A stretch of 64,000 nucleotides of DNA from Roseivirga misakiensis (lineage in GTDB: Bacteria; Bacteroidota; Bacteroidia; Cytophagales; Cyclobacteriaceae): assembly GCF_001747105.1 (NCBI RefSeq), contig NZ_MDGQ01000005.1, positions 868,001 to 932,000 of the forward strand. Direction: 5' to 3'. Below are positions 31,642 through 36,151 of this stretch, piece by piece (within the stretch, counting starts at the first letter, position 1; each line of letters begins with the position of its first letter). The position numbers were made by a program, and so were the translations under genes. Below the pieces are notes generated by a model. It was not told the origin of the DNA. It was given only the letters and a program-made list of their open reading frames with translations, and did not search any database.

Positions 31642-32967
31642 TTACACCTCCAGTCTTTTTGAAATTATATCTTCAACATATCGTTGAAGTGCTTCAATCT
31701 CTAAATTCTCTATCACGTCACTTGCAAACGCATTGAGTAATATGGCTCTTGCGTGCTCTTTTTTGATCCCTCTCGCTTGTAGATAAAACAAGGCATCGTT
31801 ATCAAGTTGACCTGTTGTACAACCATGAGAACACTTCACATCATCAGCCCAAATCTCAAGCTGTGGTTTAGTGTTAATTGTTGCATCGTTGGTTAACAGG
31901 ATGTTTTTATTTGACTGAAAAGCATTCGTTTTTTGAGCTTCTTGTCTCACGAAAATCTTACCATTAAAAACACCTTTAGACTTATCGTTTAGGATGCCTT
32001 TATAGAGTTCATTTGAATAAGAGTTAGGCTCAATATGATCTACTACCGTATGGTTATCTACATGGGTTTTTCCATTAAGTAGATAGAGCCCATTCATGTA
32101 GGCCTCACAACCTTCACCATTCAATTTGATTTCTAGGTTGTTTCGAACCATAGCACCATCTAAAGCGATCGTATTGGCAGTGAACGTACTATCTCTTTCT
32201 TGTGCTATCGCTATGTTAGACATGTGGTAGGCATCGGTGGTGTCGTTTTCTATTTTGAAATACTTGGTGTTAGCATTTTTATCCACGAATATCTCATTCA
32301 CCACATTAGTAAATGATTTGTGTTCACCGATAGTATCAAACTTTTCGATAATAGTGATCTGAGATGACTTACCGACAGCAACTATGTTCCTTACATTATA
32401 GATAGATTGACTTTTACTACTATCTCCAATAAAATGTAAAGCAATCGGCTTATCTATGATTACATTATCGTCGACCTGAATAAAGAATCCATTTTGACTA
32501 AATGCTGTATTTAGTGCGACAAAGGCATCTTTTTCTGCGTTGGCATGTTTGCCGAAATAACTTGAGAGTGTGTCAGTATTCTCTTTGGCAGCAGTTGCAA
32601 AAGTTGTGACAGTTAGCCCTTTTTCATCGATCTGATCCGATAATTCAGCACTGTATTTACCATTTACAAATACACAATTATAAGCATCTAGATTTTCAAT
32701 TTTCACCCCTGAAACAACGGTTGCACTTACAGTGTCGGTATTTTCAGGTGTATTGAAATCGATATTCTTTTCAATTGCCTTGGTAAAGTTTGTGAATTTG
32801 TACTCTTCGTCCTTGGGCGCTGGGAATCCTTTGTCCTTCAATACATCAAAGGCATTTTTCCTTACACCATGAATGGAAGATTTACTCTGACCATTTAAAC
32901 CTTTTTCGAACTCATCGAAACGGTCTAATAAGGTGTCAATGATTGACTGGCCTGCTAATTTATCCAT
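31642..32967 (-). CDS. sufD: Fe-S scaffold protein SufD
   Basis: SufD is a right-handed parallel beta-helix that pairs with SufB on top of the SufC ATPase dimer. The 441-residue protein carries the family C-terminus DDVKCSHGCTTGQLDNDALF and YLQARGIKKEHARAILLNAF. The N-terminal 80 residues are helical. It starts 3 nt after sufC ends. Confidence 0.95.
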   Translation of the reverse strand: MDKLAGQSIIDTLLDRFDEFEKGLNGQSKSSIHGVRKNAFDVLKDKGFPAPKDEEYKFTNFTKAIEKNIDFNTPENTDTVSATVVSGVKIENLDAYNCVFVNGKYSAELSDQIDEKGLTVTTFATAAKENTDTLSSYFGKHANAEKDAFVALNTAFSQNGFFIQVDDNVIIDKPIALHFIGDSSKSQSIYNVRNIVAVGKSSQITIIEKFDTIGEHKSFTNVVNEIFVDKNANTKYFKIENDTTDAYHMSNIAIAQERDSTFTANTIALDGAMVRNNLEIKLNGEGCEAYMNGLYLLNGKTHVDNHTVVDHIEPNSYSNELYKGILNDKSKGVFNGKIFVRQEAQKTNAFQSNKNILLTNDATINTKPQLEIWADDVKCSHGCTTGQLDNDALFYLQARGIKKEHARAILLNAFASDVIENLEIEALQRYVEDIISKRLEV

Positions 32968-32970
32968 GTC

Positions 32971-33729
32971 TTAAACAGTTGCGTCAGCTTCTTCTTTAAT
33001 CCAATCGTATCCTTTAGCCTCAAGTTCTAGTGCTAAACTCTTATCGCCAGATTTTACAATACGACCGTTATATAATACATGTACATGATCAGGTACAATG
33101 TAATCCAGTAACCTTTGGTAGTGAGTCACTACAATGGTGGCATTGTCTTGAGATTTCAGCACATTGACGCCGTTAGCTACAATTTTCAATGCATCGATAT
33201 CTAAGCCAGAATCAGTTTCGTCAAGAATAGCCAATTTTGGCTCTAGCATAGCCATTTGAAAGATTTCGTTTCGTTTCTTTTCTCCACCAGAGAACCCTTC
33301 GTTCAATGATCGGCTTAAAAGTGATTGGTCTATTTCAACCAATTTCATTTTCTCCTTCATCAATTTCAAGAAAGAAACAGCATCCAATGGTTTTTCACCG
33401 TGGTGCTCGCGTACCTGGTTGATGGCGGTCTTCATAAAGTTGGTTGTCGATACTCCGGGGATTTCTACTGGGTACTGGAATGCCAAGAATACACCTTCTC
33501 TGGCTCTTTCGTCGGCATCCATATCCAATAAATCTTTACCTAAGAAATCTACTGCTCCACCGGTAACTTCGTAATCTTCTCTACCTGCCAAAACAGATGC
33601 GAGTGTACTTTTACCGGAACCGTTTGGTCCCATGATCGCGTGAACCTCTCCAGGTTTAACTTCAAGGTTAATACCTCTCAGTATTTCCTTTTCTTCTATT
33701 CTTGCTTGTAAATTATTTATGCTTAGCAT
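32971..33729 (-). CDS. sufC: SUF ATPase SufC
   Basis: SufC is an ABC-type ATPase that drives Fe-S assembly on SufBD. The 252-residue protein has Walker A GPNGSGKSTLAS, signature LNEGFSGGEKKRNEIFQM and Walker B KLAILDETDSGLD. The EGFSGGEKKRNE signature is specific to SufC. It is separated from sufB by 61 nt. Confidence 0.97.
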   Translation of the reverse strand: MLSINNLQARIEEKEILRGINLEVKPGEVHAIMGPNGSGKSTLASVLAGREDYEVTGGAVDFLGKDLLDMDADERAREGVFLAFQYPVEIPGVSTTNFMKTAINQVREHHGEKPLDAVSFLKLMKEKMKLVEIDQSLLSRSLNEGFSGGEKKRNEIFQMAMLEPKLAILDETDSGLDIDALKIVANGVNVLKSQDNATIVVTHYQRLLDYIVPDHVHVLYNGRIVKSGDKSLALELEAKGYDWIKEEADATV

Positions 33730-33790
33730 AGCGATTGTGATTTCTAATTTTTTTGATTTTGACTTTTAGGGCGGTAGTAACCTTTTAGTA

Positions 33791-35236
33791 CTAACCTACC
33801 GATCCTTCTAGGGTTAAAGCCAATAGCTTTTGGGCCTCAACGGCGAATTCCATTGGTAATTGATTCAACACCTCTTTTGCATACCCATTTACGATGAGTG
33901 CTACAGCTGATTCTTCGTCAATACCTCTTTGTTGACAGTAAAAGATTTGATCTTCACCGATTTTCGAAGTAGTGGCTTCATGTTCTACATGTGCCGACTG
34001 GTTTTCAATATCTATATATGGGAAAGTATGTGCACCACACTTATTACCCATCAACAAGGAATCACATTGTGAGAAGTTTCGAGCATTTTCAGCACGTTTC
34101 ATCACTTTTACCTGTCCGCGATAGCTGTTTTGAGAATATCCAGCTGATATTCCTTTCGATACGATTCTAGATTTGGTGTTTTTACCAATGTGAATCATTT
34201 TAGTACCTGTATCAGCCTGTTGGTGGTTGTTAGTTACTGCCACGGAGTAGAATTCACCTTGAGAATTGTCACCTTTCAAGATACATGAAGGGTATTTCCA
34301 AGTAACTGCCGAACCTGTCTCTACTTGGGTCCATGAGATTTTTGAATTATCTCCCTCACAAATGCCTCTCTTCGTTACAAAGTTGTAAATCCCTCCGTTT
34401 CCGTCTTTATCACCTGGGTACCAGTTTTGTACGGTAGAGTACTTTACTTCTGCGTCTTTTGCTGTTTTGATTTCTACAACTGCGGCATGCAATTGATTTT
34501 CATCACGCATCGGTGCTGTACAACCTTCTAAATAGCTTACATAAGAACCTTCTTCGGCTACAATCAGTGTTCTTTCGAATTGGCCAGTGTTGGCAGCGTT
34601 GATTCTAAAGTAAGTGGAAAGCTCCATAGGGCATCTTACACCTTTAGGGATGTAAGCAAATGAACCATCTGAGAAAACAGCTGAATTTAGGGCGGCAAAG
34701 TAATTGTCTGTAACAGGAACTACGCTACCCATATGTTTTTTGACTAATTCTGAGTGTTCTTTAACGGCTTCTGAAAATGAGCAGAAGATAATTCCCAATT
34801 TGCCCAGTGTATCTTTAAAGGTAGTTGCAACAGAAACGGAGTCAATTACAGCATCTACAGCTACGCCTGTAAGTCTTTTTTGCTCTGTTAGAGAAATACC
34901 GAGTTTCTCGAAAGTTGCCAGTAACTCAGGATCTACCTCATCTAAAGATTTAGGAGAGGCACCTTTTTTAGGTGCTGAATAATAAATTAAATCTTGGTAG
35001 TCAACTTTTGGGTATTTGACGTTTGGCCATTCAGGTTCTTCCATTTTTAGCCAAGCTCTATAAGCATCTAAACGCCAATTAAGTAACCATTCTGGCTCTT
35101 CTTTTTTCGCTGAAATAAACCGGACAATGTCTTCACTTAAACCTTTGGGCGCTTCATCTGCTTCAAGGTCTACAGTCCAGCCAAATTCGTATTCTTTATT
35201 TGTGAATTCCTCTAAAATCTGGTCGTCGGTACTCAT
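33791..35236 (-). CDS. sufB: Fe-S scaffold protein SufB
   Basis: SufB is the main scaffold on which new iron-sulphur clusters form. The 481-residue protein has the conserved [40 protein letters not shown] and [19 protein letters not shown]. It is the first gene of the operon sufB-C-D-S-E-T-brx. A Bacteroidota -7 promoter element lies 29 nt upstream. Confidence 0.97.
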
Positions 35237-35357: not shown

Positions 35358-35822
35358 CTAGTGTAGGCTGATACTTCGGTTCATTGTTTCCTCTAGAATA
35401 ACGAAGGTTTCTGTGCGTTCAATCCCATCTACTTTTTGAATCTTATCATGTAAAATATCCTTTAAGTGATCGGTACTTTTGGCGTAAATTCTTACGAACA
35501 TACTATAGTTTCCTGTGGTATAATGAATTGAGGTGATCTCTGGGATTTTCGCAAGCTGGGCGGCTACCTGGTCATAAAGTGAGCTTTTGGATAGAAAGAC
35601 GCCCAGAAAGGAGCCAACCGTATAGCCTAGCGCATTAAGGTTTAGGTCAAGTGAAGCACCTTTAACAACGCCCATTTTTTCAAGCTTATTCATCCTTACA
35701 TGAACAGTACCACTAGAGACAAAGGCTTTTTTGGCTACTTCTGTATAAGGTTTTTTCGCGTTGTGCTGAAGCAGAGAAAGGATTTTGAGATCTACGTTAT
35801 CGATTTCGTAATTATCGGGCAT
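35358..35822 (-). CDS. Lrp/AsnC family transcriptional regulator
   Basis: This 154-residue regulator has an N-terminal winged helix-turn-helix (DLKILSLLQHNAKKPYTEVA, SSGTVHVRMNKLEKMGVV) and a C-terminal ligand-sensing RAM domain (YTTGNYSMFVRIYAKSTDHL, GIERTETFVILEE). I chose the ATG at 35822. It lies 121 nt upstream of sufB on the same strand and divergently from the RNA gene at 35980, so either could be its target. The effector, probably an amino acid, is not known. Confidence 0.9.
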   Translation of the reverse strand: MPDNYEIDNVDLKILSLLQHNAKKPYTEVAKKAFVSSGTVHVRMNKLEKMGVVKGASLDLNLNALGYTVGSFLGVFLSKSSLYDQVAAQLAKIPEITSIHYTTGNYSMFVRIYAKSTDHLKDILHDKIQKVDGIERTETFVILEETMNRSISLH

Positions 35823-35932: not shown

Positions 35933-35940
35933 TACATTTG
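35933..35940 (+). promoter_or_regulatory. Bacteroidota -7 promoter element of the tRNA-like RNA gene
   Basis: TACATTTG fits TAnnTTTG exactly and would start transcription near 35947, about 33 nt before the tRNA-like fold. A clear TTG at the -33 distance is not visible. Its TTTG half lies in the palindrome at 35937-35953. Confidence 0.55.
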
Positions 35941-35953
35941 AAACAGTTTCAAA
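35937..35953. promoter_or_regulatory. 17-nt perfect palindrome over the RNA gene start
   Basis: Two 8-nt arms (35937-35944 and 35946-35953) flank one central base. The site covers the end of the -7 element and the expected transcription start, which is where a repressor would act. The divergent Lrp-type regulator is a candidate binder, but this does not look like a standard Lrp site. Confidence 0.5.
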
Positions 35954-35979
35954 CGAGAAACAATCAAGTATGAAAATAA

Positions 35980-36097
35980 TGTAGGGTGATGAAACAGGCA
36001 GCCATGCCCTCCTTTCCCGAGGGTGGAGAAATAGAAATAAATCTAAACTACCGTTAAGACTAATCTCTCTGTGAAGGTTCGAATCCTTCTCCTACAG
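35980..36097 (+). ncRNA. tRNA-like RNA with a long variable arm
   Basis: The segment folds as a tRNA. A 7-bp acceptor stem pairs 35980-35986 with 36090-36096, including one G-U pair. A D-type arm has a 3-bp stem (35989-35991 with 36003-36005) and a GG-containing loop. An anticodon-type arm has a 5-bp stem (36007-36011 with 36019-36023) and a 7-nt loop. A perfect T arm has a 5-bp stem (36073-36077 with 36085-36089) and the standard loop TTCGAAT. Between the last two lies a 49-nt variable region that can fold into its own hairpin, far longer than in normal Leu or Ser tRNAs. The anticodon position would read TTC, but base 37 is a pyrimidine, which is atypical. CCA is not encoded. It may be a divergent tRNA, an interrupted tRNA or a tRNA-derived regulatory RNA. 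Confidence 0.6.
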
Positions 36098-36116
36098 CTA
36101 GCGCAATCATTTTTTC

Positions 36117-36151
36117 CGAGAACTTCACATGTTGGAGTTCTCGTTTTTTTT
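36117..36151 (+). terminator. Intrinsic terminator of the tRNA-like RNA gene
   Basis: An 8-bp stem (36117-36124 with 36136-36143), extendable by two pairs, is followed by eight T on the plus strand. No plus-strand protein gene precedes it, so it marks the end of the RNA gene. Confidence 0.9.

Follow-up and report, generated by a model that had tools for sequence, protein, structure and literature searches.

A tRNA-like RNA of Bacteroidota and their phages, linked to asnC and possibly serving asparagine supply

Results

An RNA gene opposite asnC

What could be the use of a gene that has a tRNA-like structure, yet has an odd anticodon-like loop and an over-long variable arm? The question is raised by a locus of Roseivirga misakiensis (order Cytophagales, class Bacteroidia), situated in the 64,000-nt stretch of DNA analysed here (the window). 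A preliminary description had proposed an RNA gene at this locus, either a regulatory RNA derived from a tRNA, a tRNA with an insertion, or a decayed tRNA. The RNA and its relatives, designated TL (tRNA-like) here, constitute a family whose existence is near certain. In the window, TL occupies positions 35980-36098 of the plus strand (119 nt, from the acceptor stem through C74). The features of the locus are:

31642-35236, minus strand: sufB/sufD-type genes and an ABC ATPase gene, presumably sufC, adjoining asnC (SUFBD_core matched twice, ABC_tran once)
35358-35822, minus strand: asnC-like gene (Lrp/AsnC family), divergent from TL (profile and structure match)
35933-35940, plus strand: promoter element TACATTTG, which we take to be the Bacteroidota −7 type TAnnTTTG, starting 47 nt upstream of TL (sequence)
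35937-35953, no strand: palindrome TTTGAAACAGTTTCAAA, overlapping the promoter, a candidate AsnC operator
35980-35986, plus strand: 5′ strand of the acceptor stem, U1 to G7, pairing with 36090-36096 (covariation)
35989-36005, plus strand: Leu-like D arm, stem 35989-35991/36003-36005 (ATG/CAT, covarying to ACG/CGT)
36007-36023, plus strand: anticodon-like arm, stem 36007-36011/36019-36023
36025-36070, plus strand: variable arm, outer stem 36025-36029/36066-36070
36036-36041/36060-36063, plus strand: internal loop AATAAA/CTAA of the variable arm (conserved plan)
36042-36044/36057-36059, plus strand: inner stem of the variable arm, which together with two pairs at 36034-36035/36064-36065 flanks the internal loop
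36073-36089, plus strand: T arm, GAAGG-TTCGAAT-CCTTC (sequence, covariation)
36090-36098, plus strand: 3′ strand of the acceptor stem, then G73 (36097) and C74 (36098) (sequence)
36117-36151, plus strand: intrinsic terminator, hairpin 36117-36143 followed by eight T

All the elements that had been described were borne out: the −7 element, the 7-bp acceptor stem, the Leu-type D-like arm, the 5-bp anticodon-like stem with its odd 7-nt loop (CTTTCCC, 36012-36018, containing U33 U34 U35 C36 C37 C38), the TTCGAAT T arm, the outer pairing of the over-long variable arm and the strong terminator (z −4.7 for the fold of 36112-36151). The inner stem of the variable arm had been placed at about 36042-36059; its pairs 36042-36044/36057-36059 are indeed conserved, but the model has to be extended by the pairs 36034-36035/36064-36065 beyond the internal loop. 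ARAGORN predicted no gene in the window, and none of the families in Rfam, the proposed check for an already described RNA, matched it at gathering scores. A low-threshold scan of the window yielded three matches, none of which reached its gathering score; the best of them (E 0.0046) was to a plastid 3′UTR family and lies on the minus strand, across the T arm and the end of the acceptor. The Rfam tRNA model RF00005 has 38 matches in the R. misakiensis genome, TL not among them. Nearly all ordinary tRNA genes of this genome (loci L064-L073 and L271-L300) encode N73-C74, without CCA.

The structure is carried by comparison among relatives

The structure proposed for TL is carried by comparison and not by the folding of single sequences. 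The minimum-energy fold of the window TL is not a cloverleaf and its energy is unremarkable (z −1.12), as are those of two relatives folded singly (z −0.07 and 0.18). In a first alignment (A1; 27 sequences hand-picked among the copies then known, leaving out duplicates, the decayed copy of L014 and very long variable arms; not fitted to the model), 96.9% of the cells are paired, and changes on both sides occur in 17 of 29 pairs. The second alignment (A2; 121 distinct sequences) gave 96.5% and 20 of 29, counts that lean towards the model because A2, drawn from 96 hand-picked loci, was fitted to it. None of 500 shuffles reached the A1 or A2 values, and sliding the partners abolished the signal. 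All seven helices covary, each with at least two pairs changed on both sides, and the weakest, the inner variable-arm stem, still has 81% (A1) and 75% (A2) of its cells paired. A lack of stem conservation in relatives, which had been named as grounds for giving up the RNA gene, is therefore not what the comparison returned.

In most members, the variable arm follows one plan, which leads from the outer stem through a few bases and two pairs to an internal loop RAYAAA/CUAA and the inner stem. Many members have an additional apical part containing GGGUUGACCACY, which is absent in the genus of the window. One member, in genome G048 (genus probably Hymenobacter), has no variable arm and is called tRNA-Asp(atc) by ARAGORN; it keeps the loop, U1-A72 and G73.

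That TL is a decayed tRNA, or a tRNA with an inserted element, is exceedingly unlikely in light of the both-side changes in every helix and of loop positions that are invariant across the class. Some loci do hold decayed copies (the second copy of L014, and L363); nevertheless, many families, and phages too, retain the loop, the acceptor and the motif of the variable arm, which contradicts both of these earlier suggestions.

TL is widespread in Bacteroidota

Searching the R. misakiensis genome at the DNA level retrieved TL once; the other match, 29 bases long, is a fragment only. Similar DNA was present in 53 of 59 genomes, R. misakiensis included, part of the matches covering the T arm only. 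Most genomes of the window's genus contain two or three tandem TL copies. A covariance model built from A1 gave the window TL 128 bits, against 53 bits for the highest-scoring ordinary tRNA in its genome. Since ordinary tRNAs also match, and all 291 genomes of the order pass the printed threshold, the stricter cut-off of E ≤ 1e-18 was used, at which a hand count, done twice, gave ∼212 of the 291 genomes, approximately three quarters. Among the 79 weaker genomes, some have truncated, short or decayed copies (G050, G194, G048, G293). In a sample of the class, 43 of 247 genomes pass E ≤ 1e-16, 33 of them, from 16 families, outside the order; in a sample of the phylum, whose portion from other classes is not given, 23 of 247 pass, all inside the class. 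Among the matches listed by a pattern scan of named genomes, TL occurs in Algoriphagus, Cyclobacterium, Dyadobacter, Spirosoma, Pontibacter, Hymenobacter, Flammeovirga, Fulvivirga, Runella, Emticicia and Chitinophaga, among others. Titles and abstracts of the literature, with thin coverage of subscription papers and preprints, contained no description of this RNA. This gene, present in Bacteroidota and in some of the phages infecting them, has apparently not been described before.

Several loci contain related sequences. Eleven serial 3′ fragments of TL lie on a Marinoscillum furvescens contig (4353-9691 of L032, the same contig as L137; plus strand), most of them with a hairpin inserted in the T loop, and each is then followed by similar downstream sequence. 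An extra T-arm-like fragment follows two tandem TL copies near 1866-1900 of L011. A near-identical stretch, TTTTATGYGTTGTTTATTGGTTAAGG, is found at L029 (4411, plus strand), L030, L160, L216, L348, L351 and L359, either just 3′ of TL or, if the locus has a decayed TL or none, next to asnC; it contains a possible mini-ORF starting MCCLLVK and is followed by a terminator-like hairpin. Elsewhere in the R. misakiensis genome (L070, contig C5, near 711-712 kb), an odd cluster comprises a tRNA-Tyr, a tRNA-Asn with G1, a 94-nt tRNA-Cys and a tRNA-Met, perhaps on a mobile element.

Loop and acceptor point to charging rather than decoding

Individual positions were compared among 62 distinct members, which were not chosen by their loop pattern, yet were found by similarity to members having that loop. 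U35, C36, C38, G73, U1-A72 and G2-C71 are invariant (62/62), and 57 members have G at position 34. Position 33, on the other hand, is U in 46 members and another base in 16, and position 37 is U in 54, C in 5, G in 3 and never A, a truncated copy (G194) with A37 being a counter-example. In the larger set, U1-A72 is present in 120 of 121 sequences and the loop reads CTGTCTC in 71 of 121 distinct ones. All 28 copies listed from the window's genus have U34 instead of G34. Every one of the 36 distinct ordinary tRNAs scanned in the R. misakiensis genome combines U33 with a purine at position 37; the TL family departs from this rule, and the window member does so by its C37 despite having U33. Among the same 36, U at position 1 is restricted to tRNA-Gln and one of two tRNA-Asn.

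The five bases G34, U35, C36, C38 and G73 are listed as strong aspartate determinants (PMC9976931). In the TL family, four of them (U35, C36, C38 and G73) are constant and G34 is usual; the window member carries U34. Its acceptor stem shares G2-C71 with tRNA-Asp and has U1-A72 where that tRNA has G1-C72; U1-A72 is the pair on which amidotransferases are described to rely (PMC4206432). The positions kept thus appear to be those that AspRS and GatCAB would read, and the positions lost those that decoding would need. Decoding in particular seems to have been abandoned because U33 is lost in 16 of 62 members and position 37 is never A in them.

Other synthetases and another mode of action fared less well. 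LeuRS was discarded: core and spacing of TL are of the Leu type, but all 62 members have G73 instead of the A73 of tRNA-Leu. tRNA-Ser has G73 and a spacing unlike that of TL, and SerRS was discarded on account of this difference. It is very unlikely, too, that TL works by pairing its loop and stem with other sequences, for instance as a mimic of the anti-Shine-Dalgarno sequence (CCUCCUUU), an idea suggested by the presence of CCTCCTTTC in the window member: relatives alter the sequence (e.g., CCCGCCTATCTCGCGGG in L034) while the stem covaries, and mimicry was dropped.

Viral copies

A pattern search, in which U35, C36 and C38 were fixed and positions 33 and 34 left free, identified TL in 31 viral contigs, with one TL each according to the covariance model and the loop CTGTCTC in 31/31. 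Thirty viral stretches were scanned for tRNA genes. Ten contain 3 to 22 of them, the nearest lying 4 nt from TL in nine of the ten; the other 20 stretches, mostly parts of contigs, contain none within the stretch. The viral status of the tRNA-array stretches follows from the source collection. From four of the tRNA-less stretches, nine of ten proteins matched PHROGs: terminase and portal (L253), endolysin, exonucleases and a PhoH-like protein (L243), a helicase (L264) and GroEL (L250). Comparing one phage TL of each type with named phages, and the window TL with named plasmids, gave no match. The minus strands of viral L265 (5064-5185 and 5269-5412), L246 (7682-7830) and L264 (4516-4660) also encode RNAs, 122-149 nt long, in which a Leu-like D arm and a tRNA T arm are combined with an unrecognised middle.

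The ten stretches that place TL among tRNA genes, as well as the GUC anticodon preceded by U33 in many members (as in CTGTCTC), might be taken to indicate an unusual decoding tRNA, such as a slow tRNA-Asp or one used in frameshifting or recoding. This is improbable: position 37 is a pyrimidine or G, several lineages have lost U33, G34 is replaced by A, C or U in some members, and an ordinary tRNA-Asp is encoded by the R. misakiensis genome, as it is by three of the ten viral stretches that place TL among tRNA genes.

TL is linked to asnC

The neighbouring gene had been referred to as lrp. Its assignment to the Lrp/AsnC family stands; its closest relative, however, is specifically AsnC, both by NCBIfam and by structure match. 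Three such proteins scored 151, 161 and 181 bits against the NCBIfam AsnC model, short of its curated cut-off of 227 bits, and at most 87 bits against the next model; the best solved structure match is E. coli AsnC. The suf genes beyond asnC are neighbours and are not thought to be part of the TL mechanism.

Among 143 loci with enough upstream sequence (some genomes, e.g., L032 and L137, were entered twice, and asnC was counted among ORFs of at least 80 aa), asnC is divergent from TL in 90 and not adjacent in 53; one of 159 loci had given no TL match. Of 19 loci outside the order, 15 have the divergent arrangement as well. An AsnC orthologue (E ≤ 1e-60) is encoded by 39 of 40 genomes with TL, the exception being G041, compared with 11 of 40 without TL (Fisher 2e-11, overstated since kinship is ignored). 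Both sets were hand-picked across families, and the TL-negative one includes G194 with its truncated copy. Of the 11 AsnC-positive genomes lacking TL, one has a truncated TL at a contig end and three belong to genus g129.

In 90 of 94 asnC-linked loci (19 expected from shuffles) and in 53 of 59 other loci (12 expected), the 150 nt preceding TL contain TWnnTTTG. The same palindrome as TTTGAAACAGTTTCAAA, or a similar one, is present in many relatives within the genus; across the order, only a weak consensus, TTTGnAnCATCAA, was found, which is also present where asnC is not adjacent. The palindrome is therefore no more than a candidate site for binding of AsnC. In E. coli, AsnC activates asnA, the gene for asparagine synthetase A, and asparagine abolishes the activation (PMC4482635).

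The position of TL opposite a transcription-factor gene would also suit a regulatory RNA, acting uncharged or as a charged decoy or sensor for AspRS, GatCAB or AsnC, which might lower Asp-tRNA formation or report the balance of aspartate and asparagine. Consistent with such a role are the tandem copies in many genomes and the large variable-arm motif, conserved in most members and not obviously needed for charging. We nevertheless regard it as unlikely: conservation peaks at the elements for charging and amidation, the member without a variable arm retains the loop, U1-A72 and G73, and a search of the 31 viral stretches carrying TL, mostly parts of contigs, revealed no AsnC-like gene within the stretch.

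Asparagine genes in genomes with and without TL

All 80 genomes of the two sets encode AsnRS (asnS). GatCAB, scored by gatB, is present in 40 of 40 TL-positive and 31 of 40 TL-negative genomes (Fisher 0.0024, again overstated because kinship is ignored). For comparison, GlnRS was reported for 13 of 14 Bacteroidetes genomes and gatCAB for two, in a sample different from ours (PMC3927822). AsnB-like proteins (E ≤ 1e-60; true AsnB and the polysaccharide type were separated in the R. misakiensis genome only) are encoded by 38 of 40 genomes with TL and 34 of 40 without; TL might thus be redundant. The only AsnB-like gene of R. misakiensis at this threshold lies amid genes for a deacetylase, a sugar aminotransferase, an epimerase and a hexapeptide transferase, and because of these polysaccharide-type neighbours it may not encode the housekeeping enzyme. 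AsnA was not detected in this genome at E ≤ 1e-20. Two TL-positive genomes, G320 and G041, have neither AsnA nor AsnB at these thresholds.

Whether AsnA takes the place of TL was also considered. In the three genomes of g129 examined, AsnC is kept, AsnA is present and TL is reduced to at most remnants beside asnC, which are weak or doubtful (G293, E 6e-5; G277, E 0.34; G317, by eye). This case alone fits, however; AsnA (E ≤ 1e-20) is found in 3 of 40 genomes with TL and 4 of 40 without, and a general replacement was rejected for want of an overall anticorrelation.

Discussion

A possible carrier for asparagine synthesis

The existence of the family and its structure are observed directly, as are the conservation of identity elements, the linkage to asnC and the presence of GatB and AsnRS in 40 of 40 genomes with TL. 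On these grounds, TL probably has a non-decoding role in which it is aminoacylated. Its more specific function might be to accept aspartate, under the control of AsnC and without decoding, for asparagine synthesis by way of GatCAB, a proposal derived from sequence comparison to which we give somewhat less than an even chance. From the intergenic region between asnC and TL, AsnC would control the transcription of TL by sensing asparagine. The transcript would be trimmed and provided with CCA, as for a tRNA. AspRS would then recognize U35, C36, C38, G73, G2-C71 and usually G34, and load aspartate onto TL; GatCAB, recognizing U1-A72, would convert Asp-TL to Asn-TL. Given a pyrimidine (rarely G) at position 37 and an optional U33, the product would not be used by the ribosome, so that no asparagine would be inserted at aspartate codons. 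Instead, asparagine would be freed and become available to AsnRS. Transcription, charging, amidation, release and control by AsnC are all steps that we infer.

For bacteria having both AsnRS and GatCAB, tRNA-Asn has been proposed to serve asparagine synthesis, which needs a non-discriminating AspRS (PMC4206432). An Asp-type loop on TL would remove this need. The Asp identity set, U1-A72 and the linkage to asnC lead us to favour a role in charging and amidation over a regulatory RNA. Arguing against the asparagine role are the U34 of the window's genus, as opposed to the G34 preferred by AspRS, and the missing G1-C72 of bacterial tRNA-Asp; the occurrence of gatB also in 31 of 40 genomes without TL is a further weak point.

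A non-decoding, apparently chargeable RNA could, alternatively, donate aspartate or asparagine to a non-ribosomal transferase, for example in modification of the cell envelope. There is precedent in the staphylococcal tRNA-Gly that functions in peptidoglycan synthesis. For TL this is rather improbable, as no such gene was seen by eye among the 25 commonest clusters of neighbours and as the presence in phages does not point to envelope chemistry.

Should the asparagine carrier be real, TL would be a tRNA specialized for metabolism, with decoding switched off and charging kept. It would also give GatCAB a purpose in genomes already equipped with AsnRS; retention of GatCAB beside direct charging by AsnRS has been called possibly vestigial in some bacteria (PMC4206432). 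The AsnC-linked, phage-borne family of tRNA-like RNAs with its structured variable-arm domain stands irrespective of whether the mechanism is right or wrong.

Comparison with known systems

Two canonical tRNAs resemble TL in different parts. Bacterial tRNA-Asp shares U35, C36, C38, G73, G2-C71 and, for most members (not the window TL with its U34), G34; TL differs from it by U1-A72 instead of G1-C72, the Leu-type D arm, the long variable arm and a base other than A at position 37. The class II tRNA-Leu shares the D-arm sequence, U44 and the two-base GU gap between variable arm and T stem, from which TL is set apart by G73 in place of A73, the longer, structured variable arm and the Asp-like loop. 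U44 with a two-base gap is the pattern of tRNA-Leu, seen also in the tRNA-Leu of R. misakiensis itself.

Closer in the role proposed is the tRNA-Asn of GatCAB-dependent asparagine synthesis, described for Deinococcus, Thermus and Staphylococcus and proposed for Bdellovibrio (PMC4206432). It has in common with TL U1-A72, G73 and the co-occurrence of GatCAB and AsnRS in one genome, whereas TL has an Asp-like loop and seems not to decode.

Among non-canonical class II tRNAs, Mukai and co-workers reportedly described Allo-tRNAs and others, and Allo-tRNAs are similar to TL in their long variable arm and an anticodon that is neither Ser nor Leu. Allo-tRNA and selC types have 8/4, 9/3 or 8/5 acceptor/T stems. 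The stems of TL, in contrast, are 7 and 5 bp long, unlike the 8/4 or 9/3 of Allo-tRNAs, and its loop is not built for suppression.

As to the layout of the locus, asnC and asnA are divergent in E. coli. There, as at the TL locus, AsnC adjoins a gene for asparagine supply (PMC4482635), if TL is indeed under AsnC control and fulfils that function; the divergent gene at the TL locus encodes an RNA and not asparagine synthetase A. It is conceivable, and we suggest it a shade more tentatively than the acceptor role as such, that Bacteroidota and their phages have a dedicated non-decoding tRNA as a carrier for converting aspartate to asparagine, which takes the place of an asparagine synthetase gene as the target switched by AsnC.
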